Source of the DNA: a virus
Virus record (IMG/VR): IMGVR_UViG_3300035698_003546
Span: 1 to 22,055 of that record
Strand: one strand, 5' to 3'
Length of the DNA: 22,055 nt
The translations under genes and the position numbers were made by a program. How positions within the stretch are numbered: position 1 is the first letter of the stretch; each line of letters begins with the position of its first letter. The notes under the pieces are model-generated. The model worked only from the letters and a program-made list of their open reading frames with translations. It did no database searches and was not told where the DNA came from. This document shows, piece after piece, positions 2,780 to 19,959 of the stretch.

Positions 2780-5700
2780 ATGTGGAATCAAGGAATTCAA
2801 GAGGGAAGAAATAAATTTCCAGACTTTAATGAGGAGCTGGCGAAATTCACTGGCTATATGGAAGAGAACGCCGCGAAGATCGCGTTATACAAATTTTTGT
2901 ATAGCAACGTTACGTTTGCGACTCACTTATTAATGGGAGTAGAACTGTTCCCTTTCCAACACATTGCTGTGAAGGCTATGATGGAGACGGATTACTTTAT
3001 GGGTGTATGGGGCCGGGGAATGAGTAAATGTGTAAGGTCAAACGAGTTATGTATGACGAGTCGCGGATTGATTAAAATGGGAGATGTTGAAGTGGGGGAT
3101 TACGTTCAAAGTCAATACGAAATGAATCGAGTTCATAAAAAAGTTATTAATAAAGAACAACAGTCGTTTTTAGCGACAACATCTAGAGGTTTCGAGTCTG
3201 AAGGTTTGGATTATCATAGAGTTTTAACTTTAACTTCAGATCTTAAAAAAGAATGGCGCTATTCAAAAGATTTAGTTAATGGTGACGTTCTTGTTATGAG
3301 AAAAAATACTAAAGAAATTGTCCAAGCGGACATTTTTGATGGAATAAAAAACGTCACGGCAAAAAACGGAGCTAAGGAAGTTTTATTTAGGGACGCTTCT
3401 TTGTCTGATTGGTATTACTTTTTTGGACTACTTCTTGGAGATGGAAATATGAACGAGTCTTCGGTAAATATTACTAGCGAAGATGTTGATACTGAGGGTT
3501 GGATGGTTGAATTCTCTAAAAAAATAGGATTAAATCTAGGAGCGAATGAACATTCTGGATCTAATTGCGTTAAAAACTTAACTTTTAACAGCGTAAACTT
3601 GGTTTCAATATTAAAACAATTAGGATTCTCACACTCTTCAGAAAAGCCAGCTCATAAAAAAGAGGTTCCAGTCGGAATTAGAGCAGCAAGCAAAGAAAAT
3701 TTAGCGATGCTACTAAAAGGGTTGTTTGACACAGATGGTTATTGTTCAGAAACAAGAAATGAAAAAAAGAACTCTCAAACGGTTCGTGTTGGATTTACGA
3801 GTTCAAGTTACGAGTTAATTAAGTTCGTTAGAGCGTCTTTGCTCCAATTGGGAATAGTTAATTCTACAGCAGAATGCTTCAAAGGTGGCATGCAAAAATT
3901 TGGAGACAAATATTTTGATTGCAAAAAAGCTTGGTCTGTGAGGGTGACCGCTTTTAGTGGCGTGTCACTTTATAGGGATAAAATAGGATCCAACATTAAA
4001 AGAAAATCCAATACTTTAGATTTTATAGATAATTGTGACTACGTTCCTTTTATTGGGCCTTATTTAAGAAAAAAATACAATAAAAAAAGTCTCGCAAAAA
4101 GAATTAATGGAAAAAAAATCAGACAAAGTTTAAATAATAATATGTCAGTAAGCGCCCTCAAAAAGCTTCTTGATGTAAAGTTTGCCTTATCTAAAGAAGA
4201 TTTGGATCTAATCAATTCTTTTGTTGATGATAATTTCTTCTTTGACACGATAAAATCCGTAGAGAAGAAAGAATGCGTAACCGTCGACATAGGCGTCGAA
4301 AACGAGCATAATTATGTGGCTGATGGAATCATTAATCACAACTCATTCACCACTGGTATTTTCGCGGCAATGCACGCCATTACGAACCAAGGGGTTCATA
4401 TAGGTATTATCAGTAAATCATTTAGACAGTGCCTTCAAGAAGATGGGGTGTGCTTTACGGACAAGGGTTTGGTTAAAATTAAAGATGTCAATATTGGAGA
4501 TAAAATATTCTCTGAAAAAGGATCAAACTTAATAGTTAATAAATGGAAAAATAATCCAGCAAAAGGAGGAAAAGTAACAACATCTAGAGGGTATAGTTTA
4601 GAGGGAAAACTTAAACATAGGTTACTATGTTTTAACAAGGAGAGCCAAGAAAAGGTATACAAGAAGATTTCAGACCTATCTATAGACGATGTAGCTTTAA
4701 TACAATTAGGGTCTAACGATTTTCCAAAATCCTGCGACAAGCATTTATCTACTGACGACTCTTATTTTATGGGTATGGTTATGGGTGATGGTTGTTTTGA
4801 TAAATATAAATATGGATACGTTGATATTTGCACGGCTGATAAAGAAACTCAAGAATTTGTAGAAGGTTTTGCGGAAAATAATAATTTAAGACCTCCAGTG
4901 ATAACAAAAAAAGCTAACAGTAAAGCTGTCAGTGTTAGAATAAACAATAAAGCTTTTGTTAATAAATTTTTCAAGGATATTGATGAGAAAGCAGCCATAT
5001 TTAAAGACATTCCAGTTGAAATATTAAAATCAACAAAAGAAAACGCAAAAAACTTTTTAATGGGTCTTTTTGACGCTGATGGAACCGTAGCTAAAGACAG
5101 GGTTGAGTTACCCACTTCGTCTCCCAAAATGGCTAAATCCGTCCAAACGTTATTGTTAAAGTTTGGAATTATATCTAAAATTCAAAAAGAAAAAGCTCGC
5201 GGGGAATTCGTCACTTCGATGTGCGTTAAAACTTTTGGAAATGAATTCTTTAAAGTTAAAATAACTGGTGTTGAGTTTGTTAAAATATTCTCAGATGAGA
5301 TTGGGTTTAAATTATCTAGAAAATTAAACCTTTTAAAAGGTTATGTGGAAGAATCCAAAAAAAGAGGAAACAACAATATTATATTCGGATCTGGAGAATA
5401 TTTATCTAAAAAATACAAATTCAAAGAAACTCTTGCAAAAAATCTTTCTAAAAAAAGATTAAGAAGAATACTTTTCGAATATTCGGATAGAATATCAGAT
5501 TACGATCAGTTAAAATTTAATAAAATATTAGACTCCTCAAACTTATTTTTCGACAAAATATCAAGCATCGAGCTTGTGGACGATGTTGTTACTTACGATA
5601 TAGAGGTAGATAATGAACATTGCTACACAGCAGAAGGGTTTATTAATCACAACTCCAAGATGATCTTTAAAAAGATCCAGGACATTGCGGCGGAACCTGG

Positions 5701-7285
5701 TGCTGCTTTGTTGAGCCAATGTATAGATAAAGTTTCCAAAAGTAGTGATCAGTGGGATATGAAGATTGGGAAGAGTATGATTACCGCCCTACCGTTAGGT
5801 GATGGTGAGAAGCTTCGTGGTTTCCGTTTTCAATGTATTATTATTGACGAGTTCTTGCTTATGCCGTCAAAGATTTTTAACGAAGTTATTATGCCGTTCT
5901 TGGGTGTTGTTCAAAACCCTGTTGAGCGAGACAGGCTTTCGTCGGCAGAAACTGAACTTATTAAACAAGGTAAAATGAAACCAGAGGATCGTCACGTTTG
6001 GGAAAACAACAAACTCATCACTCTTAGTTCAGCTAGTTACAAGTTTGAGTATATGTATGAAGTTTATTGCAAGTATGAAGCGTTGATTACTGGAGTCATG
6101 GACTCTAAGTTAAAAAAGTTACTCGCAAAACAAGGAGACGGAGCTGAAACTGGCGACGTAGAGTTCGACGAGGACGCTGATAAAGCTCACAGAGTTATCA
6201 TGCACATGAGTTATGACTGCGCGCCAAAAGCCCTTTATGACCAAAACATGCTAAAGCAAGGTTTAGCTACGATGAGTAAATCTCAGTTTGATCGAGAATT
6301 TAATGCCGTATTTACGGGCGACAGTTCTGGTTATTTTAAAATGCAAGCTATGGCTGAATGCACTTATGAGGATGGAGTCGGACAGCATGTCGAGATCAAG
6401 GGAGATCCCAAAGCTCAATATATAATGTCCTTTGACCCGTCGTGGTCAGAGAACGAATCTTCGGATGACTGGGCGCTGCAAGTATTTAAGTTAAATAAAG
6501 AAAAAAAATCAAAAACATTAGTCCACAGTTATGCTATGGCTGGTGCGAATATGAAGGAACATGCTAAATATGTAAAATATATACTACAAAATTTCAACAT
6601 CGAGATGATTATTGGAGATAGAATGGGTGGGCTTCAATTTATGCAAGCCTGTAACTCAAGCTCCATCTTTAAAGATGCGGGACTCAAGTTAGACACTATT
6701 GAATCAAAAAAGATTGACGAGAAAAGCACTTACCACGCAGCTCTTAGAGAACTCAAAAATTCTATCAACAAGGAGTCTGGTAAGATAGTGTTCCTAAGAA
6801 ACCCTAGCACAAACTGGATTCGAGAAGCTAACGAAAGGTTACAAGCCGACCTAACCCATAAGAGAATTAGATTTGCTGGCGCTCCTTTGGATGAAGATTT
6901 TATAGCGGAGGTTGGCAAAGACATTCCTATTGACTCATTCAACTTTGACAAGATGTTTAGCGTTAAAAAAGAAGATAAGGGGATAGATACTTTTGATTCT
7001 TCCGCTCATCAAAAAAGAGGAATGAAAGTCGACTTTGTAGAACATATTAAAGATATGATCACACTGACAAAAGCTCAATGCGCTCTAATTCAACCCACTT
7101 CGACAACCACTGGACAGCAAAGATTTGACCTTCCGCCAAACCTTCGAAAGCAGACTGGGCCTACCAAAACAAGGAAGGACTTATACTCCGCGCTTGTTTT
7201 GGGTAACTGGGGAGCTGGAGTTTGGTTTGATATGGATTCTGGTCAGCACCAGTACAATAATGATTTTGTGCCTTTTATTGTCTAA
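2780..7285 (+). CDS. terL: Large terminase subunit precursor interrupted by two inteins
   Basis: The terminase motor pumps phage DNA into the prohead and cuts it. The 1501-residue precursor holds inteins at residues 84-521 and 551-958. After splicing, a 655-residue enzyme remains, a normal family length. In spliced numbering the ATPase has Walker A GRGMSKS (K83-S84), Walker B CIIIDEF (D177-E178) and a coupling motif TLSSAS near S237. The RNase H-like nuclease has candidate metal ligands D373 (SFDPSW), D434 (IIGDRMGG) and D621 (TRKDLYSALVLGNW). The exteins read through in one frame with no stop, and both junctions restore conserved motifs, so function should depend on splicing. It follows the nuclease gene by one base. 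Its stop codon lies at the first of two palindromic repeats before the portal gene. The start ATG follows an AT-rich stretch with no clear ribosome-binding site. Confidence 0.95.
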   Translation: MWNQGIQEGRNKFPDFNEELAKFTGYMEENAAKIALYKFLYSNVTFATHLLMGVELFPFQHIAVKAMMETDYFMGVWGRGMSKCVRSNELCMTSRGLIKMGDVEVGDYVQSQYEMNRVHKKVINKEQQSFLATTSRGFESEGLDYHRVLTLTSDLKKEWRYSKDLVNGDVLVMRKNTKEIVQADIFDGIKNVTAKNGAKEVLFRDASLSDWYYFFGLLLGDGNMNESSVNITSEDVDTEGWMVEFSKKIGLNLGANEHSGSNCVKNLTFNSVNLVSILKQLGFSHSSEKPAHKKEVPVGIRAASKENLAMLLKGLFDTDGYCSETRNEKKNSQTVRVGFTSSSYELIKFVRASLLQLGIVNSTAECFKGGMQKFGDKYFDCKKAWSVRVTAFSGVSLYRDKIGSNIKRKSNTLDFIDNCDYVPFIGPYLRKKYNKKSLAKRINGKKIRQSLNNNMSVSALKKLLDVKFALSKEDLDLINSFVDDNFFFDTIKSVEKKECVTVDIGVENEHNYVADGIINHNSFTTGIFAAMHAITNQGVHIGIISKSFRQCLQEDGVCFTDKGLVKIKDVNIGDKIFSEKGSNLIVNKWKNNPAKGGKVTTSRGYSLEGKLKHRLLCFNKESQEKVYKKISDLSIDDVALIQLGSNDFPKSCDKHLSTDDSYFMGMVMGDGCFDKYKYGYVDICTADKETQEFVEGFAENNNLRPPVITKKANSKAVSVRINNKAFVNKFFKDIDEKAAIFKDIPVEILKSTKENAKNFLMGLFDADGTVAKDRVELPTSSPKMAKSVQTLLLKFGIISKIQKEKARGEFVTSMCVKTFGNEFFKVKITGVEFVKIFSDEIGFKLSRKLNLLKGYVEESKKRGNNNIIFGSGEYLSKKYKFKETLAKNLSKKRLRRILFEYSDRISDYDQLKFNKILDSSNLFFDKISSIELVDDVVTYDIEVDNEHCYTAEGFINHNSKMIFKKIQDIAAEPGAALLSQCIDKVSKSSDQWDMKIGKSMITALPLGDGEKLRGFRFQCIIIDEFLLMPSKIFNEVIMPFLGVVQNPVERDRLSSAETELIKQGKMKPEDRHVWENNKLITLSSASYKFEYMYEVYCKYEALITGVMDSKLKKLLAKQGDGAETGDVEFDEDADKAHRVIMHMSYDCAPKALYDQNMLKQGLATMSKSQFDREFNAVFTGDSSGYFKMQAMAECTYEDGVGQHVEIKGDPKAQYIMSFDPSWSENESSDDWALQVFKLNKEKKSKTLVHSYAMAGANMKEHAKYVKYILQNFNIEMIIGDRMGGLQFMQACNSSSIFKDAGLKLDTIESKKIDEKSTYHAALRELKNSINKESGKIVFLRNPSTNWIREANERLQADLTHKRIRFAGAPLDEDFIAEVGKDIPIDSFNFDKMFSVKKEDKGIDTFDSSAHQKRGMKVDFVEHIKDMITLTKAQCALIQPTSTTTGQQRFDLPPNLRKQTGPTKTRKDLYSALVLGNWGAGVWFDMDSGQHQYNNDFVPFIV
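3029..4342 (+). mobile_element. Intein 1 in terL, with LAGLIDADG homing endonuclease
   Basis: This 438-residue intein starts at precursor Cys84 and ends with His-Asn (INHN), followed by Ser522 of the extein. All the expected landmarks are visible: the N-terminal splicing block (CVRSNELC, then GLIKMGDVEVGDYV), a block B His in GLDYHRVLTL, and C-terminal blocks VTVDIGVENEHNYVA and GIINHN. Between them lie two LAGLIDADG-type motifs, FFGLLLGDGNM (acidic D221) and LLKGLFDTDGY (D319). Both catalytic Asp residues are kept, so the endonuclease may be active. The insertion point lies between Lys and Ser of the terminase Walker A motif, so an unspliced protein should have no ATPase. Codons look more A-rich than in the flanking extein, as expected for a transferred element. 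Splicing activity is inferred from intact residues. Confidence 0.95.
4430..5653 (+). mobile_element. Intein 2 in terL, with LAGLIDADG homing endonuclease
   Basis: This 408-residue intein starts at precursor Cys551 and ends in INHN before Ser959. Visible blocks are CLQEDGVCFTDKGLVKIKDV at the N-terminus, a block B His in GKLKHRLLCF, LAGLIDADG motifs YFMGMVMGDGCF (D670) and FLMGLFDADGTV (D767), and C-terminal VVTYDIEVDNEHCYTAEG. It interrupts the extein SKSFRQ/SKMIFKK, a conserved terminase segment after Walker A, only 29 extein residues beyond intein 1. It shares several segments with intein 1: TTSRG near block B, a Y-L-x-K-K-Y stretch late in the element, NEH in block F and the terminal INHN. 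All residues needed for splicing and for the endonuclease appear intact. Confidence 0.95.
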
Positions 7286-9421: not shown

Positions 9422-10237
9422 ATGGATAACAACATCATACAAAATTTATCAATTATCGTTGAGCAGTCCCTCAAAGGTATTGAAGCGATGATTCCTCTAG
9501 CCCTCTACTATTCGGAGTATTTTGAAGCCTATGAATCAGAAAGTATTATTGAACATTACTTCTCTATCGGACGACTAATATCTCACGCTAAATGGGAAAA
9601 GGAATATCAAGAACGTAGTGCTTTAGAAGCCGCTCACGCTTCCGTTATCAATTACGATTCTATCCCAGAGCCTACTTCAGTAACCAATAGTTACGAAATT
9701 AAGTCTGGATCTATTATCTTAGACTTTTCAAGTAAAGGTATGACGTCATCTGAGCTTGGTTTATATAAGGATTATGTAGCATGCCACTTGGCAGAAGCTT
9801 CTTTCACTCCAGACAATACAGCGGCTCTAGCAACAGCTATTCGATCTTTCGAAAATAATAAAGAGCAAGTTTTGACAAAAATGACTGAAATTAGTGAAGC
9901 TAATTCAACTATCCTTCCAGAATCTTTCCAAGCTAAAGTTTTGCAAAATTCAGTTTCAGAAAAAACTATTACTGAAAAAGGATTATCTCAACTAGAAGCT
10001 ATTAAGCCATTTGTTGCATTCGCTGCTGAAGGGGGAACCGAACTCTTTATGAATTCTATTAAAGAAGGATCTAAGGTATTTACTAAAGACTCTAACTCTA
10101 AAAAAATCGAAATATCAAAAGCTTCGTTTGAAATATTAAGCGGAATCGAAATTACAGTCACGGACGGTATTATTTCCAAGGTTAATCCTAGTAAATTAAT
10201 GAAGTCTCTAAGGACTGACGCTAACGACAATGAATAA
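9422..10237 (+). CDS. Unassigned protein between portal and protease
   Basis: I do not recognise this 271-residue protein. It is acidic. Residues 1-80 are helical with aromatic residues (LALYYSEYFEAYESESIIEHYF), and a small beta-rich segment lies around 85-105 (YEIKSGSIILDFSSKGM). Helices follow, with a beta-rich end (KKIEISKASFEILSGIEITVTDGIISKVNP). There is no signal peptide, membrane segment or known catalytic motif. It starts 8 bases after the portal stop and its last 8 bases overlap the protease-scaffold start, so it is co-translated with head genes. By position it could be a minor head or core protein, but this is not supported by its sequence. Confidence 0.8.
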   Translation: MDNNIIQNLSIIVEQSLKGIEAMIPLALYYSEYFEAYESESIIEHYFSIGRLISHAKWEKEYQERSALEAAHASVINYDSIPEPTSVTNSYEIKSGSIILDFSSKGMTSSELGLYKDYVACHLAEASFTPDNTAALATAIRSFENNKEQVLTKMTEISEANSTILPESFQAKVLQNSVSEKTITEKGLSQLEAIKPFVAFAAEGGTELFMNSIKEGSKVFTKDSNSKKIEISKASFEILSGIEITVTDGIISKVNPSKLMKSLRTDANDNE

Positions 10238-11780
10238 AGGGGATTTTAAATACAAGGCTAAGTTTTCTTCTAAAGCGTTAGCTACAACAGTAACGAAGCG
10301 TCTGGAATCAGCTCAAGCTTCTGAATCTGTATTGGAATTCATTCCAATTACTGTGGATTTAGAGTCAAACTTTGATTTGATCGGATTTACTTATCCAGCA
10401 GCAGTAGTAAATCAATTTAACAAAAACGGACATGGAATATCTACAGCAACAGCTTTAGCAATATCTCCTACGTTTCCGCATAAACCTACAAAAGTAGACC
10501 ATAATTATGAAAAGGTTGTTGGTCACATTGTAAATTCTTTTTTTACGAAGCATAAAACTGGTGAGCCTTTATCTCCAGAAGAAATTGAAGAACTGGGCGA
10601 GGAGAAATTCGATATTAGCCTAGCTTCTGTTTTATACACCAACGCAGACTCTATGTTTACGGAGATCGCGGTTAGGTCATCTGATCCAGACGATCAATTA
10701 TACGGATTCATTTCTGCTAGTTGGGAGATTTTGTTTAACGATTTTCACATCGCCGTCGGATCGAAAGATTTGAAAGATTGCGAAATCATAACTGACCCAG
10801 AAGAAATTGAGGAAAATTCTCAGTATCTACTGTCCAGAGGTGGCACAGGAACAAACGAAGATGGGCAACTGGTTAGCCAGTTGATCGTTGGAGAAGCTAT
10901 AGCTGTTGGTATTGGTTTTACTACTAATCCAGCCGCTGATGTAAAAGGTGTGAAAAGTTCTATTTGGGAAATGCTTGCCCCTTTAGAAGAAAAAATTGCG
11001 GCTAATACAGAAAATATTTCACAAACCGCAAAAAACAATGTAAAGCAGACTAAAGTATCACCTAACTTATTAAACATGAACGAAGAAAAATTAAAATCTC
11101 TAGAAACAAAGTTCGACTTAGCTCTGGCTGGTTTCGCAAAGCAAGAAGGCTTTGAAGAAGCAAAGGCAAGTTTTTCGACCCTGCTTAAAGAGGCAATCGA
11201 AGAAGGAAACGCAAAGTATTCCAAAGAAATTAAAGTAGAGCAGGACGCAAAAGAACTTGCGGAAAAAGAACTTAAAGATTTAAACGTTAGTCTCGACGAG
11301 ATTAAAGCAGAACTTAAGGATAAGAGCGATAAGCTTACTGTTCTTGAAGCTGCTGAAGAACAAAGATCTGCTGTTGAATCTCTTAACGTTAGAGTTTCTG
11401 AACTTGATGACATTTATGAATTATCTGACGAAGTTCGTAAGGTTATTATGGACAATATTCAATCGATGGACGACGCAGCTTTCGTTTCTTATAAAGAACA
11501 ACTTGCAGTAATGCTTGCTGGTAAACTTAAAGAAAACGTTGCTAAAGCAAAAACAGACTTTGACGAGAAAGTTAAGGCTGAAGCTCTTAAGCTTCAAGCT
11601 AACCCAGCTAAGACTCCAGAACAAGCAAAAGCTTCTTCTACAGAGGTTGACGTTGAAGATATTCTTGATAATACAGAAGCTACTGAAGCGTCTGTATCTA
11701 CACACTCAAAAACAGTAACTGATTCTGACGAGTGGGCAAAAGCCTTCGAAGGAGAAAACAGTATCACTGTTCAACACTAA
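10230..11780 (+). CDS. Prohead protease fused to coiled-coil scaffold
   Basis: This 516-residue protein probably combines two head-assembly jobs. The N-terminal 180 residues look like a prohead maturation protease: KVDHNYEKVVGHIVNSF holds a candidate catalytic His (H91) before a VVGHI strand, and GFISASWEILF holds candidate serines S162/S164, in the order seen in herpesvirus/HK97-type proteases. Residues about 285-450 are highly charged, Lys/Glu-rich and predicted coiled coil, as in scaffolding proteins that fill the prohead core and are then degraded. The last 60 residues are acidic and low-complexity. An in-frame ATG at 11076 (residue 283) marks exactly where the scaffold-like part begins, but has no clear ribosome-binding site. 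The start overlaps the previous gene by 8 bases. Capsid genes follow. The protease call is moderately sure; the catalytic residues are inferred. Confidence 0.7.
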   Translation: MNKGDFKYKAKFSSKALATTVTKRLESAQASESVLEFIPITVDLESNFDLIGFTYPAAVVNQFNKNGHGISTATALAISPTFPHKPTKVDHNYEKVVGHIVNSFFTKHKTGEPLSPEEIEELGEEKFDISLASVLYTNADSMFTEIAVRSSDPDDQLYGFISASWEILFNDFHIAVGSKDLKDCEIITDPEEIEENSQYLLSRGGTGTNEDGQLVSQLIVGEAIAVGIGFTTNPAADVKGVKSSIWEMLAPLEEKIAANTENISQTAKNNVKQTKVSPNLLNMNEEKLKSLETKFDLALAGFAKQEGFEEAKASFSTLLKEAIEEGNAKYSKEIKVEQDAKELAEKELKDLNVSLDEIKAELKDKSDKLTVLEAAEEQRSAVESLNVRVSELDDIYELSDEVRKVIMDNIQSMDDAAFVSYKEQLAVMLAGKLKENVAKAKTDFDEKVKAEALKLQANPAKTPEQAKASSTEVDVEDILDNTEATEASVSTHSKTVTDSDEWAKAFEGENSITVQH

Positions 11781-11802
11781 TTTATTAACAAATAAAAAAA
11801 CC

Positions 11803-11819
11803 AACCTAAATATAAAAAA
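11803..11819 (+). promoter_or_regulatory. A-rich leader of the decoration gene
   Basis: The bases just before the start codon read AACCTAAATATAAAAAAA. The capsid gene has a closely matching leader (AACCTATAATATATAAAAAA). There is no Shine-Dalgarno sequence. The shared element may be an A-rich translation enhancer or a promoter very close to the start. Confidence 0.4.
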
Positions 11820-12440
11820 ATGAAAAGACTCTTACCATATAGAGAAGAAGACGGACATGACGTTCGTAACGGATTCGCTCTTGTTGACGCTCAAGTAAAC
11901 GACAGTATCACTACTGTTGGACTTGGTGATGACGGAGTGCTTGTTAAAGTTTCAGTATGCGACCTAGACGCAGATGTTACTTATTCAAACGACGCTTACC
12001 TCGGTAAGACGGATTACCCACATGTTTATGACTCAATGTATCCTACGAATCCTCGTAAGATTGAGGCATGTGCAGCAGGAGAAAACAGAGGAGCAGTTCT
12101 CGGTTTTACCCTTAAAGAGACAGCTCTTAAAGACGAACACGGACAAAGCTTTCTTTATGATCGTGAGAAGGCTGATAGAAACTACGTTGTTATTAAAGGA
12201 AAGTCTGTTCCAGTTCTTGTAAGGGGTGTTATTACACTTTCGCAAGCTGGTATTACAGGAACTCTCGTTACTGGCGCTGGATTCAAGCCGTCTCTTACAG
12301 AGATCGGAAAAGTTGAAACTTGCGTTGTAACAGACGTTGACTCACTTGGACTTGTTCTTGGAACAGGAACTCGTACCAGCAAGACTGGAATCACTGATAA
12401 ATTCGAGGGGCATTATGCCATGCTCGATATTAGACTATAA
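11820..12440 (+). CDS. Probable head decoration (cement) protein
   Basis: This 206-residue protein lies directly before the major capsid gene, the usual place of a head-decoration protein that stabilises the expanded shell. It is beta-rich with many Val, Thr and Gly residues (VLVRGVITLSQAGITGTLVTGAG; VETCVVTDVDSLGLVLGTGTRTSKTG). It has no signal peptide, helix-rich region or catalytic motif. Its codons (CTT, GTT, GGA, CGT, AAG) resemble those of the capsid gene and are less A-rich than those of neighbours, suggesting high expression. It also shares a leader motif with that gene. The function rests on position, composition and codon use; I do not recognise the family with certainty. Confidence 0.6.
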   Translation: MKRLLPYREEDGHDVRNGFALVDAQVNDSITTVGLGDDGVLVKVSVCDLDADVTYSNDAYLGKTDYPHVYDSMYPTNPRKIEACAAGENRGAVLGFTLKETALKDEHGQSFLYDREKADRNYVVIKGKSVPVLVRGVITLSQAGITGTLVTGAGFKPSLTEIGKVETCVVTDVDSLGLVLGTGTRTSKTGITDKFEGHYAMLDIRL

Positions 12441-12444
12441 TTTA

Positions 12445-12464
12445 AACCTATAATATATAAAAAA
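12445..12464 (+). promoter_or_regulatory. A-rich leader of the major capsid gene
   Basis: The 24-base gap between the decoration and capsid genes holds AACCTATAATATATAAAAAA right up to the ATG. It contains a TATAAT hexamer at 12449-12454, but this is so close to the start codon that a promoter here would give an almost leaderless transcript. It matches the leader of the preceding gene and is more likely a translation signal. Confidence 0.4.
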
Positions 12465-13574
12465 ATGAAAATTACTTTCGAAAAATCTAAGGAGCAACTT
12501 GAGCTAATCAAGGCTATGGCTTCTAAAGACCCTGCAAAAGCAATGAGGGCCCAATTAGCCCTTGCTACTTTTGTTGGTAAAGCACTTGCTCAAGGAATTG
12601 ACCAAGCTGAAGTTCTATCTAACTTGTTTAGAAGAATTGAATTCAACGCTGATGATAGCCCGTCTATCCCGCTTGACCTCTTCTACGACATTAGTTCAGA
12701 AGACTATGTAAACATCTGGCATCAAGATTCTGCTGGTGGACTTGGTTTTAACCAAATCACTCCTACAGACCATGAGCTTAAGATGACTACTTACGACATT
12801 GAAACTGCTGCTGCATTCGACAAGAAGCACGCTGCAAGAAGTCGTGCTGACATCGTTGCTCTTGCGTTCTCTAAGATCGCTCAAGAAATCCTAATTTGGC
12901 AAGAAAATTCATCTGCAAACATCATCCTTGGTGCTTTGGCTGGAGCTTCTACAAACGGAATCGCTCACGTTGAGAGAATGGAAGCCACTGACGAGTTCAA
13001 GCTTCATGACTTCAACACCCTCGTAACAAGAGCTGACCTCATCGACACTTCATGGGTTGGTGGAACACCAGTTGCTGAAAACAACCTTGTAACAGACCTT
13101 ATGGTTTCTCCTCTTATGGCGCAGAAGATCCGTGAGATGGCTTACAACCCAATTTCATCAGTTGGAGATCACCTTGGTTCTGATAAGATCCGTGACGGTA
13201 TTTACGCTAACGCTGGTGGAATGAACTTCTACGGAATTAACGTAATCAAGTTCAAGGAATTTGGAAGCGGCAAGAAATTCAACAGCATCTTTGATGGCGC
13301 TGCTGGAGCAACAACATACGCGAAAGCTGATGGTTCCGCAGATACAGCGTTCGTAGCTGCTAACGACGAGATTCTTGTCGGAATTAACAAGTCTAGAGAT
13401 GGATTAGTTAACATGGTAGCTGTTGATGGTGATAATGGGTCTTCTCTTGAGTTGACTCCAGACAACCAGTTTGTTAACAGACAGAAGAAGATTGGTTTCT
13501 TCGGCGGGAAACAGGAAGCGCGTGCGGTTCTTGACACTAGAGCACTCTTCGGAACGATCTATACTAAGTCGTAA
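12465..13574 (+). CDS. Major capsid protein, HK97-fold candidate
   Basis: This 369-residue protein is the best candidate for the main head shell subunit. Its place after protease-scaffold and decoration genes, its length and a strong terminator right behind it all fit. The N-terminal 60 residues are helical and charged, like the delta region that proteases remove. A central region (DHELKMTTYDIETAAAFDKKHAARSRADIVALAFSKIAQEI) resembles the E-loop and spine helix of HK97-type capsids. A later segment (NLVTDLMVSPLMAQKIREMAYNP, then GMNFYGINVIKF) resembles the A-domain strand-helix pattern common in this fold. Codon use is strongly biased and less A-rich than in neighbours, as for a very abundant protein. 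The start is preceded by an A-rich leader without a Shine-Dalgarno site. Confidence 0.85.
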   Translation: MKITFEKSKEQLELIKAMASKDPAKAMRAQLALATFVGKALAQGIDQAEVLSNLFRRIEFNADDSPSIPLDLFYDISSEDYVNIWHQDSAGGLGFNQITPTDHELKMTTYDIETAAAFDKKHAARSRADIVALAFSKIAQEILIWQENSSANIILGALAGASTNGIAHVERMEATDEFKLHDFNTLVTRADLIDTSWVGGTPVAENNLVTDLMVSPLMAQKIREMAYNPISSVGDHLGSDKIRDGIYANAGGMNFYGINVIKFKEFGSGKKFNSIFDGAAGATTYAKADGSADTAFVAANDEILVGINKSRDGLVNMVAVDGDNGSSLELTPDNQFVNRQKKIGFFGGKQEARAVLDTRALFGTIYTKS

Positions 13575-13583
13575 TAAACCTAG

Positions 13584-13598
13584 AGCCTTTTAAAGGCT
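13584..13598 (+). repeat. Small hairpin after the capsid gene
   Basis: AGCCTTT and AAAGGCT flank a single T just after the capsid stop codon. With a one-base loop it would open slightly when folded. It sits 10 bases before the main terminator and may protect the 3' end of the abundant capsid message. Confidence 0.4.
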
Positions 13599-13607
13599 GA
13601 TATTTTT

Positions 13608-13637
13608 AAAGCCACCCTAGAAATAGGGTGGCTTTTT
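13608..13637 (+). terminator. Rho-independent terminator after the capsid gene
   Basis: A 9-bp GC-rich stem, GCCACCCTA with TAGGGTGGC, closes a GAAA tetraloop and is flanked by AAA on the left and a run of five T on the right. It lies 34 bases after the capsid stop and should end or reduce read-through from the head genes. Confidence 0.9.
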
Positions 13638-13706
13638 ATTTCCCACTATGTAAGAAGTTGTGTAAAGCCGACTGTAGAAAGAATTATAAACAAATGGAAT
13701 ATTCAT

Positions 13707-13997
13707 ATGGAAAAGACTTTGGAAAAAAAAAAAACTCCAGAGCAACAATTGGAATACGTCAAAAAAATGAAAAAAATCATTAATGGCGGAAAACCTTTAT
13801 CAAACCCTTTTGGGGAAGTGAAGGAGGAGGCGTTCGCCTCAAAGCTGGATTCGATGAACTTGTACGACATACAGGCGTTATGTGTTAAAGTAAATGTGCC
13901 GCCTAGTGGGACAAGACCTTTTTTGAAACGCAAGCTTAAAGCTGAGTTCGCTAAATTTTTAGTAAAAAATAGAGACGCGTTGAATGAAAACAATTAA
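13707..13997 (+). CDS. Small SAP-like protein
   Basis: This 96-residue basic protein starts with a Lys-rich helix. Residues about 47-82 (LDSMNLYDIQALCVKVNVPPSGTRPFLKRKL) follow the SAP pattern: a hydrophobic helix, a short turn with SGT, then a basic helix. SAP modules are short DNA- or protein-binding motifs. It is the first gene after the capsid terminator, so it needs its own promoter. The 69 bases before it include TGTAAA and TTATAA, but no clear box pair. Its last 14 bases overlap the next gene. By position it belongs to the head-neck group. The SAP match is by eye only. A full antisense frame covers the same bases, but coupling with the next gene supports this strand. Confidence 0.7.
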   Translation: MEKTLEKKKTPEQQLEYVKKMKKIINGGKPLSNPFGEVKEEAFASKLDSMNLYDIQALCVKVNVPPSGTRPFLKRKLKAEFAKFLVKNRDALNENN

Positions 13998-14424
13998 TGA
14001 TATAGCTAGAGAGGTCTATGAAAACGAATTCGAATGCGACGATACCGTTGTTACATTCACCGCTATATCAGCTTGGTTTGAATCCAGCATAGGAAAACTC
14101 AATATCATTACTTATTCATGCTTTGAAGAAGTAGAACCAGATTTGAGCGATGAGGCTGCTGACATCTTCAAGTGCATGTATTTGCACCAGTTTTACCAGA
14201 AGTATGCTGCAAAGGCTCTGAGAGGCATCCTAGATGGCTCAGAGAGTTCTATATTAAGCATTAAAGAGGGTGACACTACAATTATCAAATCGAACAAGAA
14301 CGAAGTAGCTAAAACTCTTAGGGGGATAGCTAAAGACTTTAAGTCTCAGTTGGATGACTTGGTTGGTAAATATCAACTATTAAAATCTCCACCGTTAGAC
14401 GTTCAGTATGACGATGAATGCTAA
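13984..14424 (+). CDS. Probable head-tail adaptor (neck) protein
   Basis: This 146-residue protein is mostly helical: INDIAREVYENEF, AISAWFESSIGKLNIITYSCF, SDEAADIFKCMYLHQFYQKYAAKALRGIL and a C-terminal VAKTLRGIAKDFKSQLDDLVGKY. Small helical proteins of this size right after the capsid gene are typically adaptors of the HK97 gp6/SPP1 gp15 type, which bind the portal and start the neck. The helix with many aromatic and basic residues near 60-80 would suit ring packing. It overlaps the SAP-like gene by 14 bases and is followed by a two-way terminator. The assignment is from position and size; sequence alone does not prove it. Confidence 0.6.
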   Translation: MKTINDIAREVYENEFECDDTVVTFTAISAWFESSIGKLNIITYSCFEEVEPDLSDEAADIFKCMYLHQFYQKYAAKALRGILDGSESSILSIKEGDTTIIKSNKNEVAKTLRGIAKDFKSQLDDLVGKYQLLKSPPLDVQYDDEC

Positions 14425-14450
14425 TTAGCATCCACAAAAAAAGCCAATAA

Positions 14451-14478
14451 AAAAGCCACTCGAAAGAGTGGCTTTTTT
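14451..14478. terminator. Bidirectional terminator between convergent genes
   Basis: The stem AAAAGCCACTC with GAGTGGCTTTT closes a GAAA loop. A and T runs on both sides make it work on either strand. It lies 26 bases after the adaptor stop and 22 bases beyond the end of the - strand tail gene, so it separates the convergent transcripts. Both the GCCAC arm and GAAA loop match the capsid terminator. Confidence 0.9.
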
Positions 14479-14499
14479 GTTATTATATTTAGCTATTTG

Positions 14500-15660
14500 T
14501 TAAGCAGTTTGTCCACTAACGAACACTCCTGCGTTAAGGTCTTTTGGTCCACCAATTTGGGCAGTGAACGTAAGATCGACAGTTTTGTTTGACCCAATAG
14601 ATTGAGAAAAACTTTCTGATTCAAGCTCAACACCTTTAATAAGGTATTGAGCAATTGAAGGTCCGTTACACGGAGCTTTGAATGTGATCGAAAGATCCTT
14701 TGAGCCTGGAGAACAAATCAAGTCATAAACACAACCGTCTTTAAGGTCAGCAACAATAGCAGATACGTTAACCGTAATCTGAATTGGGAAGTCAACTTCT
14801 TCCGCGAAGGCGAAGTTATTACCAAGTCTTTCGAGTGGAGTTCTTGAAAGCGGGATGTTAAGAGAGAAAGATTGAATGTGAGCGCCTGTTCCGTTAGCAC
14901 CATCTGAAAGAGTAGTGTGTACTGAACTTTCGTCTAGGTCAATCACAATATCGCCAGGTCTTAATGCGGAAGGAAGCGTCGCGCTTGCTCCTGTGAAAGG
15001 AGTTAGCGTTGGGCTTGCACTGCTAACGTCGATTGTTGTCAACTCTGTTGACATTCCTGTCTCATCAGCAAATCCAGCCTTTACTTCAAGAAGCTGTCCA
15101 GTAGGAACCGTTAGTCTTTGTGAGCATTGGTTAGAAGCTTTGATTGAGAATGATGTAGTAGGGATAGATCCAACTGACGCTTCAAAAGAATAGTCTGTTA
15201 AGTAAGCCTTGCTAATTGAGATCGCTAAAACTTCTGCGTCTACTGGGAATCCACCAATGTTAGCATCGTTACCTTCTGGGCAAGTAAGCATATAAAAGTT
15301 TCTTCCAGATTTAACAGCCGCTGCAATAGGATTGCCAACGTCTGCTGAAAGTAGGTTTTTAGTGAAAGATTCTGTGAAGTCGTCGCTCAAGTTAAATCCT
15401 AGAGCTACTTCGTTTTTCATGTTACTCATTAAATAAGTAAAATCAGCAGTCACTTCTGGAGATGAAACCACAACAGTTCCAATTCTTCCTTGTTGACCCC
15501 ACTGGTTTACATCTTCTCTAGTTATGTTCATTGAGAAGTTGCCGTCTTGGACTCTGTGGATTTGTTCTACATTTGATGCTGGAATAGCTGCGTTAGGCAG
15601 GTCAGTTCCGTCATTTAAAAGTAAAACATCACATTGGTAGTTTTGTCTATTTCTATTCAT
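14500..15660 (-). CDS. Probable major tail tube protein
   Basis: This 386-residue protein is beta-rich with many Thr, Ser, Val and Asp residues and has no signal peptide. The start MNRNRQNYQCDVLLLNDG, the REDVNQWGQQGRI segment near residue 50 and the SFSLNIPLSRTPLERLGNNF segment near 262, followed by EEVDFPIQITVNVSAIVAD, fit a tail tube subunit. The order of strands, an N-terminal arm and a C-terminal beta domain (SIGSNKTVDLTFTAQIGGP) is like siphophage major tail proteins. Its codons are less A-rich than in its neighbours, as in the capsid gene, which suggests a highly expressed protein. It is the last gene of a four-gene - strand block and has its own 59-bp leader. The length is large for a tube protein, so an extra surface domain is likely. 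A structural role is fairly sure; the exact part is inferred. Confidence 0.7.
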   Translation of the reverse strand: MNRNRQNYQCDVLLLNDGTDLPNAAIPASNVEQIHRVQDGNFSMNITREDVNQWGQQGRIGTVVVSSPEVTADFTYLMSNMKNEVALGFNLSDDFTESFTKNLLSADVGNPIAAAVKSGRNFYMLTCPEGNDANIGGFPVDAEVLAISISKAYLTDYSFEASVGSIPTTSFSIKASNQCSQRLTVPTGQLLEVKAGFADETGMSTELTTIDVSSASPTLTPFTGASATLPSALRPGDIVIDLDESSVHTTLSDGANGTGAHIQSFSLNIPLSRTPLERLGNNFAFAEEVDFPIQITVNVSAIVADLKDGCVYDLICSPGSKDLSITFKAPCNGPSIAQYLIKGVELESESFSQSIGSNKTVDLTFTAQIGGPKDLNAGVFVSGQTA

Positions 15661-15719
15661 AATAAAAAAGTATAATTAGTTTGGTAGTGTTTACAGGTAT
15701 TTAATACTTATGTGAAATT

Positions 15720-16658
15720 TTAAGCCCTTGGAAATCTAGATATTGTTAATTCAAAATCTAAAAAGCCTACATAGAAGCTGGGGGCTACCTTTTTACGCAC
15801 AACGTCTTTCATTTTGGAAGAATACACGACCTCGACAAACATATTTGCTCCTGTTGGATCTTCATGGCTTTTATAATTATAATCAAACATCAAGTCGTTA
15901 TATTCGTCAAAAGGAATGTCATCAAAAGATAAAACAGGAACACAAGTTCTTACTAAGTCTTCAAAAGTTCCCAACGTAACATCTAACTCGTAAGTATCTC
16001 GCGTCATAATTACAGCTCTGAATATCATTTGGTATTGATCTTCCCCTCCAAGTGCGTATGGGACGTTCTGACCTTTAGGCATGCTTATATAAGCACAGGG
16101 TATCACATCGTCATAAGGAAGTATAGCTCTCGCTGAATCGTCATTCTCGAACTGATCCGTGTTGTCTCTAACGCTCTGACTCTTCTCGATTATCAAGTCG
16201 TCTGACACTTCGTTTGATACATATACATTTAATTCTTTGGTTGAAACAGCGGATATTGTAAGAGTGGCTATAGAATCAATGTTAATCGCGTCGTTTGAAG
16301 GGTTAACAACTTCTATACCATCTTCGTCCGTCATGTTTCCAGCTTCATTTTTGTAAAGAATAATTCTTGCGTTTTCGTAATCGACAATATGGTCAAACTG
16401 GTCGATTTGGTCGCCGCCATCTGTAAAGATGGTTGCGTTGCCAGCTACAAAAGCCCCAGTAATAGAGCTGTCCGCATTCCAAGATTTATTCTCAGCTCCA
16501 AAAGAAACCATATCCTCAAATATTCTCTCGTCTGGTTGAGCATACTTGTATAGCGTCTCATTGAATTTATTTACGAAGGACTCTGCCTTTTCGCACATTT
16601 TATGGTCGAACCACAGGGCGAAGCTTGAAAAAGCTTCTTGTTTAAAGTTTGGTTTCAT
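15720..16658 (-). CDS. Tail or neck structural protein, possible tail terminator
   Basis: This 312-residue acidic protein starts with a helical stretch (SFALWFDHKMCEKAESFVNKFNETLYKYAQPDERIFEDM). A beta-rich, Asp-rich middle follows (ITGAFVAGNATIFTDGGDQIDQFDHIVDYENARIILYKNEAG; IDSIATLTISAVSTKELNVYVSN). The end reads YVGFLDFELTISRFPRA. It begins one base after the previous gene ends and is two genes before the tube gene when read on the - strand, counting from the block start. In siphophages a tail terminator or completion protein sits just before the tube gene. Tail terminators are usually near 150 residues, so this one is long. I do not recognise the family. The helical N-terminus looks like that of minor capsid proteins, so other neck roles are possible. 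Confidence 0.6.
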   Translation of the reverse strand: MKPNFKQEAFSSFALWFDHKMCEKAESFVNKFNETLYKYAQPDERIFEDMVSFGAENKSWNADSSITGAFVAGNATIFTDGGDQIDQFDHIVDYENARIILYKNEAGNMTDEDGIEVVNPSNDAINIDSIATLTISAVSTKELNVYVSNEVSDDLIIEKSQSVRDNTDQFENDDSARAILPYDDVIPCAYISMPKGQNVPYALGGEDQYQMIFRAVIMTRDTYELDVTLGTFEDLVRTCVPVLSFDDIPFDEYNDLMFDYNYKSHEDPTGANMFVEVVYSSKMKDVVRKKVAPSFYVGFLDFELTISRFPRA

Positions 16659-16659
16659 T

Positions 16660-17325
16660 TTATAAATTTCTTATTAATAGTGTTAGTTCTTCTATATATT
16701 GATTGTATAGATCTATTAGGAATCCCTTTCTCTTAAAAATTAGGAATCTCTTTCTATTAAAAGCTCCTCCTCTTAGTTTTCCTTTTATTTGGATAGCCTC
16801 TTCTGAAGTCGAGTATCCTTTTCCAGCAAATTTTTCTGGGTCATACATAAAATTTTGCAATCCAGACACTCCCTCTTCAAGACCTTTTACCCAACTTCTA
16901 GCTGAACCTACAGTTCCTCCCATAGGTGTTTTTTGGTATATTTCTTTTTTGTTTAAAACATTACTTATTTCAAACGACATGAAAGCACTCCCTCTTGGTG
17001 AAACCCTAACTAGCCTGGAATCGTTGAACATTTCGTATAGTGTTCGAATATGATCAGCGGCTTCGTCTGAAGATAATCCAAAAAACGCATTCAGAGAGCC
17101 TTGCCCTTTTACTAATTCAGAAAGTCTTCCAGTAAGCATATCAACGACAACTGGATGAGCATTGAACTTTGCAAGATATTTCCTTCTTATTCTTCCTCCC
17201 CTAGCAACAACCTTGCTTCCGACATCCCTCTCAACAATTTTAGATGCTGCGACCTCTATTTTTCTTTGAATCTTTTTGTTTAAACCAGAATTGGCAAGAC
17301 CTTTTATTTTTCCAGCTCTCGCCAT
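16660..17325 (-). CDS. Neck or minor tail protein, gp10-like by position
   Basis: This 221-residue basic protein begins with a Lys/Arg-rich helix (KIKGLANSGLNKKIQRKIEVAASKIVERDVG), then helices rich in Arg and Lys, and ends in FLIDLYNQYIEELTLLIRNL. The N-terminal helix, then a beta part (RLVRVSPRGSAFMSFEISNVL), recalls HK97 gp10-type neck proteins, which have a long N-terminal helix and a small beta sheet. Those proteins lie between the stopper and tail terminator genes, as this one does in its own reading direction. One base separates it from each neighbour, so the block is an operon. The family match is weak and is mostly from context. Confidence 0.6.
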   Translation of the reverse strand: MARAGKIKGLANSGLNKKIQRKIEVAASKIVERDVGSKVVARGGRIRRKYLAKFNAHPVVVDMLTGRLSELVKGQGSLNAFFGLSSDEAADHIRTLYEMFNDSRLVRVSPRGSAFMSFEISNVLNKKEIYQKTPMGGTVGSARSWVKGLEEGVSGLQNFMYDPEKFAGKGYSTSEEAIQIKGKLRGGAFNRKRFLIFKRKGFLIDLYNQYIEELTLLIRNL

Positions 17326-17326
17326 G

Positions 17327-17797
17327 TTAATTATCCTCCTCTTCGACTACCTGTAAGTGAAGATCATAGTATCTATTGTTAAATACTCCGTGAGGTCTAA
17401 AATCAGAAGATATTGAATACCTTCTATCTTCCTCCAAGATAGTGACTCGTTTTGCTTCTTTAAGAATTTTATAAGTAGCTTTATCAACTCTTAGTCTAGC
17501 CCCTCCTGTTGGAATTTTAATTCTAAGCTGAGATTTTACGCTCGGATCTGCCCATAAGTCCAATCTAGGATCTTCATGCAAGACCCTGCCCTTTCCAGTG
17601 ACCTTGACAATCTCTCTGCCAGCGGTTCTGTCTCCCGTATTATTTCTCTTGTAAAACTTGTTATACGAAGTGTCAACAACAACGGTCTTGAGTTTCATGT
17701 CCTTATATATGACAATATCTTTCGAGAATTCGTTATGCACATAATCTATACATGCTTCTATTTCTTTTTTGTCTTTGTCGTTTAGAAAGTCACTCAT
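17327..17797 (-). CDS. Small neck protein, stopper-like by position
   Basis: The start chosen is the ATG at 17795-17797, giving 156 residues (MSDFLNDKDKKEIEACIDY...). A longer frame opens upstream to 18115, but its added 106 residues are antisense to the small + strand gene and have an odd hydrophobic composition. After an N-terminal helix the protein is beta-rich: VVVDTSYNKFYKRNN, LRIKIPTGGARLRVDKATYKIL, then VTILEEDRRYSISSDFRPHGVFNNRYYDLHLQVVEE. This shape fits a small beta-barrel stopper or head-closure protein, which stops DNA leaking from the head. It is first in the - strand block and starts 60 bases from the divergent + gene. The function is from position and fold impression only. Confidence 0.6.
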   Translation of the reverse strand: MSDFLNDKDKKEIEACIDYVHNEFSKDIVIYKDMKLKTVVVDTSYNKFYKRNNTGDRTAGREIVKVTGKGRVLHEDPRLDLWADPSVKSQLRIKIPTGGARLRVDKATYKILKEAKRVTILEEDRRYSISSDFRPHGVFNNRYYDLHLQVVEEEDN

Positions 17798-17803
17798 ATA
17801 AAA

Positions 17804-17834
17804 TATTACACTTTTTACGTGTTTTTGTGTAATA
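17804..17834. promoter_or_regulatory. Inverted repeat in the divergent promoter region
   Basis: TATTACAC at 17804-17811 and GTGTAATA at 17827-17834 form a perfect 8-bp inverted repeat around 15 bases. Both half-sites are followed, in opposite directions, by a gene start: the - gene 6 bases away and the + gene 23 bases away. The 15-base centre is T-rich on both sides of ACGTG. It may be a regulator site or a pair of outward-facing promoter elements. No known binding protein is assigned. Confidence 0.45.
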
Positions 17835-17857
17835 CCAAGAAAGGAATAAGGAAAATT

Positions 17858-18145
17858 ATGAAGGATAAAAAAATAGAAACCTTTATTAACGAATGCTCGT
17901 CTGAAGAAATTAAGAATCTCTTCGTCAGTTTTTTGGGAATATTGGACGACATAAAGCACGAACATGATGAGATTTTTTACAAAGTCGCAAAAAATCATCC
18001 AGAAATGATAAAAACACTGGAAATATGTGATTATCTGGACGATAATAAAATGTCTTGGTTGAGAAAGAAAGTTCTCGACTTGGGAAACGCTACAAAACGA
18101 AGAGTTCAAGGTCAAATTAAGATCAAGTTCTCTGGAAAATACTAA
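17858..18145 (+). CDS. Small charged protein at the start of the tail operon
   Basis: The ATG at 17858 is chosen because AAGGAATAAGGA lies just before it. An upstream GTG at 17819 in frame lies inside the inverted repeat and has no such site. The 95-residue product is Lys-rich and acidic: KKIETFINECSSEEIKNLFVSFLGILDDIKHEHDEIF, ending in KKVLDLGNATKRRVQGQIKIKFSGKY. It is helical with a basic end and has no known motif. It is the first + gene of the tail module, and the next gene begins 15 bases after it. Its first part is antisense to no real gene once the - gene start is corrected. Function unknown. Confidence 0.7.
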   Translation: MKDKKIETFINECSSEEIKNLFVSFLGILDDIKHEHDEIFYKVAKNHPEMIKTLEICDYLDDNKMSWLRKKVLDLGNATKRRVQGQIKIKFSGKY

Positions 18146-18160
18146 ATAAACAAAGAAAAA

Positions 18161-18907
18161 ATGAAAAAGAAAGATATTAAATCTTTATACTCTATGGAGG
18201 TAGAAAACCTCGTAGAGAAAGAAGTTAAAAAAGAGTCTAAAGATGGTGATGGCAAGGTTATAACCGTTGTTGAAAAAGAGATGGTAAATGAGCCTCTTAC
18301 GGTTTATTTCAAAAAACCAACAAGGAGATTGACAGAGGAGGCTGAAGAAATATTCTCTATTAAAATGAGTGATTGTATTAAAAAGGGAATTATTACAAAA
18401 GCTATGTTAGCCAAAAGTTATAGAGAGGGAGGCGGACCTCTCACTGACGACGAAACCCTTGACCATTCCGACGCTTATGTAAAACTTATTAAAGCTAAGG
18501 AAGATTATATTGAGCAGTGTTCTGTAAAAAGAAAAAGCAAAAAGAAGGAAGAGGATCTTATCAAACAGATTGCTAATCTAGAAAAAGAAATAAAAGATAT
18601 TGAACAGCCCTACCAAGAATTATTTTCAAATACGGCTGAAGCTAAAGCTCAAGACGAGACTATTAAGTTTTTTATTCTAATGAGTTGTTTTTATAGCGAG
18701 CCAAATTCAGATGAGGTTATTCCATTCTTTGGTGGGGAAACATTTAAAGATAAGGTGGAGCATTATTACAGGGTGTTCGAAATGGACGAAGATAAACTCC
18801 ACAAGAGATTTTCGTCTCTAAGTGAAATGACAACTATCGTCGCCCTTTGGTATATTACAAAAACAGACGATATTAAGGCTACATTAGAAGCTTTTAATGA
18901 GCAATAA
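18161..18907 (+). CDS. Probable tail assembly chaperone, first of pair
   Basis: This 248-residue protein is charged and helical, with Lys/Glu-rich parts and a predicted coiled coil near residues 125-150 (KRKSKKKEEDLIKQIANLEKEIKDIEQ). Cys and Phe residues sit in IKFFILMSCFYSEPNSDEVIPFFGGETF near 168-195. It lies two genes before the tape measure, where lambda-like and other siphophages have tail assembly chaperones (gpG/gpGT type) that coat the tape measure before tube assembly. The end overlaps the next gene by 11 bases. There is no visible slippery site in the overlap, unlike classical cases. I infer the role from position only. Confidence 0.6.
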   Translation: MKKKDIKSLYSMEVENLVEKEVKKESKDGDGKVITVVEKEMVNEPLTVYFKKPTRRLTEEAEEIFSIKMSDCIKKGIITKAMLAKSYREGGGPLTDDETLDHSDAYVKLIKAKEDYIEQCSVKRKSKKKEEDLIKQIANLEKEIKDIEQPYQELFSNTAEAKAQDETIKFFILMSCFYSEPNSDEVIPFFGGETFKDKVEHYYRVFEMDEDKLHKRFSSLSEMTTIVALWYITKTDDIKATLEAFNEQ

Positions 18908-19910
18908 TGATAACCAGCTAAACGAAGACGCTTTCTACTCCTTGTTTGATGAGGTGTGTAATGGATGCTCTCCTTTGTTTTTTAGGGGGCAGGATCTTTT
19001 TATAAAACACCCTTCCGCTTCTGATTTCGCTAGGTTTGAGAATAAAAAAAGAAGAGAGATAGAAAATTTAGTATCTCAAGGCGGTCAAACCAGCGAACAA
19101 ATCATTCAATCTATGAAGGATTCTGGAGATTGGGATTTCGATTCAGATAAGAGGATAGAGATTTTAGAGTTTGAAGTGGAAACTTCAAAAGCTTACGTTA
19201 AAACTCAAATTATAAAAGCTCGCGTTTCTAGCGAGAGGATAAAGAATAAAAAAAGGATCATTGAGATAGATGAGCTTAAAATCAAACTGGCTGAATCCAT
19301 ACCTTATGAAGGTGTAGATATTGTAGTGTCTAAAAGGTTGAATATTGATTTTTTAATACAAAGCTTGTTTAAGGACGAGCGGTGTTCTGTTGGCTTTTTT
19401 GATGAGGACGAGGATATTGAACCAGACGATCTTGATCAAATGTTTCATCTTTATGTAAGTTACAAAGAAAGATTTAGTAATGAAAATTTACAAAGGCTCG
19501 TTATTCAAGATTTTTTTAAGATTTATTACATGTTTTGCGAAAGTCCTAATGAGTTTTTTGGATTGCCAGCAAAAGATCTAACTCAAAACCAGTTATCGAC
19601 GCTATATTTCGGAAATGTATTTAAAAATTTATTCGAAAATTACTCGGAAAACATGCCAGATTCTATTAAAAATGACCCAGAATCTTTATTGGAATTTGTC
19701 GATAGTCAAAACCACAAACAAGCTCACCAACAAAAAGATTCATCGAGAATGGATCAGCACGGAAACTTGGTTATGTCTACTAAGTTTGGAGCTTCTAGAG
19801 AGGAGATGGAGACAATGTCTAATGACGGGTTTGTTGATGTTTTTAAAGCTATTCCAGAGGGTGGGGTTTTAAATGCAGAGCAATTCGCCAACGCCGTTGT
19901 AAAAGGTTAG
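18897..19910 (+). CDS. Probable tail assembly chaperone, second of pair
   Basis: This 337-residue protein is acidic and Lys-rich, with a mostly helical body. The N-terminal part (DAFYSLFDEVCNGCSPLFFRGQDLFIKHPSASDFARFE) mixes aromatic residues and a beta segment. Helical stretches follow, including a charged coil near 85-130, and the middle (QRLVIQDFFKIYYMFCESPNEFFGLPAKDLTQNQLSTLYFGNVFKNLFENY) is rich in aromatic residues. The last third is Asn/Gln/Ser/Met-rich and probably flexible. No catalytic motif is seen. It overlaps the preceding gene by 11 bases in another frame and leads to the tape measure gene by a 49-base gap. Position suggests a second tail chaperone; a minor tail protein is an alternative. 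Confidence 0.6.
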   Translation: MSNNDNQLNEDAFYSLFDEVCNGCSPLFFRGQDLFIKHPSASDFARFENKKRREIENLVSQGGQTSEQIIQSMKDSGDWDFDSDKRIEILEFEVETSKAYVKTQIIKARVSSERIKNKKRIIEIDELKIKLAESIPYEGVDIVVSKRLNIDFLIQSLFKDERCSVGFFDEDEDIEPDDLDQMFHLYVSYKERFSNENLQRLVIQDFFKIYYMFCESPNEFFGLPAKDLTQNQLSTLYFGNVFKNLFENYSENMPDSIKNDPESLLEFVDSQNHKQAHQQKDSSRMDQHGNLVMSTKFGASREEMETMSNDGFVDVFKAIPEGGVLNAEQFANAVVKG

Positions 19911-19959
19911 GTTTTTGGTGTAAATCAACGTGAGACATTAAGTTTCAAAAAAGGATGTT

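Follow-up and report, generated by a model that had tools for sequence, protein, structure and literature searches.

Introduction

Inteins in the large terminase subunit (TerL) of phages have been described before. For the mycobacteriophage TerL1 and TerL6 inteins, which like those studied here lie within the TerL ATPase domain, splicing and endonuclease activity were shown experimentally by Kelley et al. (2016, PMC5050341); the portion of that report available to us describes its sites a and b, one residue apart in the P-loop, as separate insertions and, unlike the locus analysed here, does not report a stacked pair. The TerL of Microcystis phage Mic1 (PMC7156551) does carry two inteins in one precursor, although one sits in the ATPase and the other in the nuclease domain, approximately 230 residues apart, and an endonuclease domain is described for the large intein only; control of packaging was proposed for both by the authors. 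In the crAss-like Delta group, three in-frame TerL pieces are likewise parted by two inteins (OBYQ01000140, PMC7886860), which however are of the Hint-Hop type and are found together with an alternative genetic code.

Two further cases come from outside the terminases. The haloarchaeal MCM-a and MCM-d inteins (PMC10643990) form a pair of LAGLIDADG inteins that occupy nearby sites in the same ATPase gene, Walker A being one of the two, with empty, single and double alleles mixed and with one site limited by its +1 residue, but MCM, unlike TerL, is a cellular archaeal gene; in that system, co-homing into an empty allele is inefficient (PMC10643990). The Mycobacterium smegmatis DnaB inteins i1 and i2 (PMC6195587) also share one ATPase, with one intein in the P-loop, for which conditional splicing is documented, but one of the two is a class 3 mini-intein and the second lies in the H4 DNA-binding loop. 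TerL P-loop inteins, two inteins per TerL, and interference between neighboring inteins are already published. It is an open question by what route one essential gene comes to house several homing parasites, and the experimental test of it that we found is that of haloarchaeal MCM. What is new here is a series of alleles with zero to three inteins, including pairs six residues apart, and, in a small sample, a putative concentration of endonuclease decay in the stacked alleles. In the literature searched we found no tight a+b pair, no six-residue c+a pair, no triple allele and no single and double alleles within one population.

Results

Two inteins in the TerL precursor

The window, meaning the whole stretch of DNA analysed, is a 22,055-bp IMG/VR virus record that consists of one metagenomic contig. 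Its TerL gene is laid out as follows; the site labels (c, W/SRGxSK; a, Walker A K/S; b, FRQ/S; d, LPLGDG/TKIRG near Walker B) were coined in this analysis, and c, a and b are the three main insertion points.

2780..7285, + strand: TerL precursor ORF, 1,501 aa, a 4.5-kb stop-free frame
2780..3028, + strand: N-extein, 83 aa, ending in GVWGRGMSK (Walker A through Lys)
3011..3028, + strand: GRGMSK, where relatives have their third site (c), unoccupied in the window
3029..4342, + strand: intein a, 438 aa, CVRSNE...GIINHN, between Walker A Lys and Ser (K/S)
3419..3445, + strand: intein a LAGLIDADG motif 1, FFGLLLGDG, Asp intact
3710..3742, + strand: intein a LAGLIDADG motif 2, LLKGLFDTDGY, Asp intact
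4343..4429, + strand: middle extein (link), 29 aa, SFTTGIFAAMHAITNQGVHIGIISKSFRQ, Walker A Ser to FRQ
4430..5653, + strand: intein b, 408 aa, CLQEDG...GFINHN, at SKSFRQ/SKMIF
4766..4792, + strand: intein b LAGLIDADG motif 1, FMGMVMGDG, Asp intact
5054..5083, + strand: intein b LAGLIDADG motif 2, FLMGLFDADG, Asp intact
5654..7285, + strand: C-extein, 543 aa, remainder of the ATPase domain, including Walker B (CIIIDE), followed by the C-terminal nuclease domain

A sequence-only reading of this DNA had proposed that a single terminase carries two full-size inteins within its ATPase motifs, and the presence of both inteins in the ATPase domain is borne out by the anatomy of the inserts, their Pfam and TIGR01443 matches and the predicted fold of intein a. 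Splitting the ORF at the predicted splice points reproduced its numbers as well, namely a spacing of 29 residues and joined exteins of 655 aa, and the placement of the first intein between the Walker A Lys and Ser holds, this being the classic P-loop K/S point. Both inteins begin with Cys, end in INHN and are followed by a +1 Ser, which are the junction residues of class 1. Each alone exceeded the Pfam Intein_splicing cut-off of 35.8 bits (36.0 for a and 43.1 for b) and that of LAGLIDADG_3 (E 1e-11 and 8e-21), and both matched TIGR01443 intein_Cterm. The block B His63 is invariant across 27 inteins, while these lineages do not conserve the Thr of block B (TxxH). The catalytic Asp of both LAGLIDADG motifs is intact in each (GDG and DTDG in a, GDG and DADG in b), and the predicted model of intein a (pLDDT 91.7) found as best PDB matches complete, endonuclease-containing (HEN) inteins, namely TliVMA (7qss, E 5e-22), PI-PfuI and PI-SceI. 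From these features we classify the inserts as class 1 inteins with a Hint splicing domain and a LAGLIDADG homing endonuclease, predicted to excise themselves and ligate the exteins. Their GC content is 34% (a) and 31% (b) versus 41% for the extein; across the inteins compared, AT content was higher than that of the intein's own extein in 74 of 75 cases. A PF14890 search of the window's own record yielded no inteins beyond these two.

The window being a single metagenomic contig, one might ask whether the architecture is an assembly chimera, or whether domains of TerL were mis-read as inteins. We consider this exceedingly improbable: the 4.5-kb frame is free of stops, intein-free orthologues align over both junctions, and the existence of 67 orthologous ORFs that lack both inserts excludes that the inserted sequence is normal TerL sequence. 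An assembly artefact was rejected because the same architecture is repeated on independent contigs (L004, L006, L007 and others).

The host protein and its surroundings

Divergence of the window's C-extein is too great for it to match Pfam clearly; intein-free orthologues, approximately 55% identical over their full length, exceed the Terminase_6N cut-off. Because a PDB search with a single TerL sequence gave no match, and a TerL profile matched P74-26 TerL only weakly (E 0.4), we turned to fold searches, in which a model of orthologue L009, of low to modest confidence (pLDDT 59), matched T4 gp17 first (3cpe, E 2.5e-10), followed by the T7, HK97 and P74-26 terminases. The TerL alignment shows a Walker B IIIDE and conserved acidic residues in the nuclease domain. 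The ORF thus encodes a T4-gp17-type TerL, with a Walker A/B ATPase domain and an RNase H-type nuclease domain.

Relatives of this TerL are encoded on at least 566 viral-contig stretches, and none of its C-terminus was found among 50,697 isolate-phage records. The gene next to terL has a weak portal match, an ERCC4-type nuclease with a possible C2H2 finger is encoded directly upstream (1837-2778), and nearly all remaining ORFs at 9422-22040 are without PHROG or Pfam match. The window virus belongs to a poorly known group, whose TerL has no isolate relative in those records. Four relatives were found in MAG contigs, with labels (Halobacteriovorax, uncultured bacterium, Flavobacteriaceae and Verrucomicrobiales) too mixed to point to one host.

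Alleles with zero to three inteins

The sequence-only reading had also suggested a search for relatives lacking one or both inteins, and empty, single, double and triple alleles were all found. We parsed 136 non-redundant TerL ORFs, of which 67 are empty, 35 carry c, 16 carry a, 5 carry b, 5 carry c+a, 5 carry a+b, and one each carries c+a+b and a+d, with one unclear; because this set was chosen by similarity and intein searches, and is thus non-random, these counts are not allele frequencies. Where the links could be measured they are of 6 residues between c and a and of 29 between a and b. In the c+a alleles (L214, L095, L094, L089 and L216), two full-size inteins are separated by nothing but the Walker A hexapeptide SRGxSK. 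The a+b pair recurs in close relatives (L004/L006/L007, L114 and L218) and in a distant TerL clade (L235, L240, L242 and L243), and a fragment from a distant TerL (L234:2-4108) holds the C-terminal end of an a-site intein along with b and d inteins. The triple allele (L218:5761-10491, the same as L231; contig IMGVR_UViG_3300021335_000009) encodes 1,577 aa with three splicing domains detected by Pfam: a c intein of 414 aa, an a intein reduced to a 144-aa mini-intein without endonuclease, and a b intein of 400 aa in which the first motif is broken, with links of 6 and 29 residues. The close pair had been called unusual, and it is indeed rare among published TerLs, given the approximately 230 residues of Mic1, but not within this family, where a+b recurs and c and a lie only six residues apart.

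Site-specific lineages and recurrent gain and loss

Inteins a and b of the window are homologous (28% identity, E 8e-45). A tree of 54 inteins placed those of site c in a single clade (100/100), the close a-inteins in one clade of 13 that includes that of the window (100/100), and the close b-inteins in one clade of 5, again including that of the window (100/99). The inteins cluster by insertion site and not by host gene. A duplication of one intein within the gene was rejected, since a and b share only 28% identity and fall into different clades, each specific to its site; the tree points instead to a and b as old, separate site-specific lineages.

Occupancy is patchy, near-identical TerLs differ in it, and gain or loss is recurrent, an extein tree of 50 rows requiring no fewer than 17 changes for c, 10 for a and 5 for b. 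These observations bear on the proposal, raised by the sequence-only reading, that splicing might work as a switch on packaging. According to such an explanation the inteins would be kept because they act as post-translational sensors by which DNA packaging is delayed or gated, with both splicing events required as in an AND gate. Walker A is interrupted, so that ATPase activity would have to await splicing, conditional splicing has precedent in the P-loop DnaB intein (PMC6195587), and the same idea was put forward for both Mic1 inteins (PMC7156551). However, roughly half of the sampled orthologues are intein-free, occupancy differs even between sister alleles whose exteins are almost 98% identical, both window endonucleases are intact, as expected of mobile elements, and a conserved extra regulatory feature was not found. 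Rather than being fixed in the lineage, as asked of a regulatory intein, occupancy flips repeatedly and empty alleles are common. The proposed switch is therefore not supported, and we regard a gating function as very unlikely.

Stacking within one species-level group

Alleles with c only, a only and c+a coexist within one species-level group. The exteins of L213 (c only) and L093 (a only) are 97.9% identical in DNA, and those of L095 and L214 (c+a) are about 93% identical to both. The a-intein of L093, however, is 99.3-99.4% identical to those of L095 and L214, far above the extein level of 93.4-93.8%, whereas the c-inteins of L213 and L095 are 93.8% identical, close to it. The simplest reading of these identities is a recent transfer of the a-intein between one allele with a alone and another that carries c, in which the site that received or donated it is 18 bp away from another intein. 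Such recent movement applies to the relatives and not to the window allele, because the window inteins share no more than 46% (a) and 52% (b) protein identity with their nearest relatives.

The same alleles speak to whether the two inteins might move as one cassette, copied by a single repair event. That a+b is found in several lineages (window, L004 group, L114, L218 and the distant clade) would agree with joint movement, and some stacked alleles do hold an endonuclease-dead or endonuclease-free partner able to hitch-hike, such as the mini-intein of L218 or intein a of L007. On the other hand, single-site alleles segregate beside doubles (L213 and L093 versus L095), the c and a inteins of L095 differ in history, as the identities above indicate, and co-homing was inefficient into the empty haloarchaeal MCM allele (PMC10643990). 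We thus consider joint movement unlikely.

The hexapeptide SRGMSK is identical in L213, L093 and L095, with its 18 bases recoded synonymously (TCACGCGGCATGAGTAAA, AGTCGAGGTATGAGCAAG and TCCCGTGGGATGTCCAAG) between nearly identical flanks. Short co-conversion tracts or escape from cleavage could be the cause. Identity far from the insertion point versus near it was 93.8% versus 73.9% for L108 (a) and L193 (c), and 98.6% versus 92.0% for L213 and L093; the dip was clear in about 5 of 20 pairs of differing occupancy and absent in the others, with a mean of 0.028 in pairs that differ in occupancy versus 0.009 in empty pairs. Such local divergence at the insertion points of some allele pairs fits what short co-conversion tracts would be expected to leave.

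Endonuclease decay in stacked alleles

An intein was scored as decayed when either motif had lost its catalytic Asp or when the endonuclease domain was deleted. Decay affects 6 of 23 inteins in multi-intein alleles versus 1 of 55 in single-intein alleles (Fisher p 0.002), in a test that was selected after the data had been seen and on a small sample; after clustering at 90% identity the figures were 6/18 versus 1/36 (p 0.004), and within the close family only 4/14 versus 0/30 (p 0.007). The sister alleles L004 and L007 have exteins identical in DNA, yet the Asp of intein a is lost in L007; the partial allele L006, which lies outside the decay test, has a different change at that position (GNG). 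Also outside the test, the distant-clade doubles add two lesions, in L240_a and L242_b. In L114_b both endonuclease motifs are degenerate and the splicing ends are kept; in the single-intein allele L123, intein a has lost the motif 1 Asp. Endonuclease decay therefore appears to be concentrated in stacked TerL alleles, a pattern that we treat as a lead, because the test was post hoc, the sample small, and the archaeal survey disagrees: HEN domains were equally frequent in double and single MCM inteins (PMC10643990), while the TerL lesions concentrate in stacked alleles.

Limits on the insertion sites

The +1 residue of the close relatives is Ser wherever an a, b or c site is occupied, as it is in all 40 occupied c sites. 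At the unoccupied b site it is Ala in 55 of 118 close relatives, and Ala at +1 cannot support splicing. At site c of the window it is Gly and not Ser, so that an intein of class 1 would be unable to splice there and the site is at present closed to intein c. These limits at TerL sites b and c parallel the Pro/Ser limit of haloarchaeal MCM-d (PMC10643990).

Discussion

We consider it highly probable that two site-specific inteins invaded a T4-type phage terminase gene by sequential homing, and that two excisions would give an active 655-aa TerL. Translation would yield a 1,501-aa precursor with a split Walker A, from which each intein would excise itself, in either order, through Cys1, the terminal Asn and the +1 Ser as is standard for class 1, rejoining GRGMSKS of Walker A and SFRQSKMIF of the FRQ strand and helix. 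The need for two splicing events, pointed out by the sequence-only reading, is supported: both must take place before Walker A and the strand and helix after it are whole again. The packaging ATPase would presumably be inactive before both inteins leave. At the DNA level, each LAGLIDADG domain would cut TerL alleles without its intein, and repair of the break would copy the intein in, possibly spreading inteins between viral alleles within co-infected cells (for mycobacteriophage TerL inteins, splicing and cleavage have been demonstrated experimentally, PMC5050341). Cleavage of the empty TerL allele by the window endonucleases is predicted from the occupancy polymorphism and from the near-identical a-inteins in diverged alleles. 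The pair would have been built as one intein after the other homed into neighboring conserved sites of the same gene, and would not be a designed unit. For the window virus itself, working splicing and cleavage, the order of arrival of the inteins and a lack of ATPase activity in unspliced TerL are inferred. Overall, the allele series fits site-specific homing parasites that stack successively and whose splicing is obligatory for ATPase function.

More tentatively, with somewhat less confidence than we would need to favor it, we envision a ratchet by which inteins pile up in the P-loop region of this TerL family and stacked alleles become dead ends. Its steps, to be taken just as tentatively, would be homing next to an occupied site, as close as 18 bp, with a very short co-conversion footprint, and then loss of the endonuclease.

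In one viral gene family, and partly in one species-level group, a natural series of empty, c, a, b, c+a, a+b and c+a+b alleles is available, which makes sequential stacking and endonuclease decay directly testable. The six-residue spacing is an extreme test of protein splicing, as a single hexapeptide has to serve the first intein as C-extein and the following one as N-extein, and of target recognition by the endonucleases as well. If the ratchet were true, this TerL family would be a natural viral counterpart, at very short spacing, of the neighbor-interference model derived from MCM.
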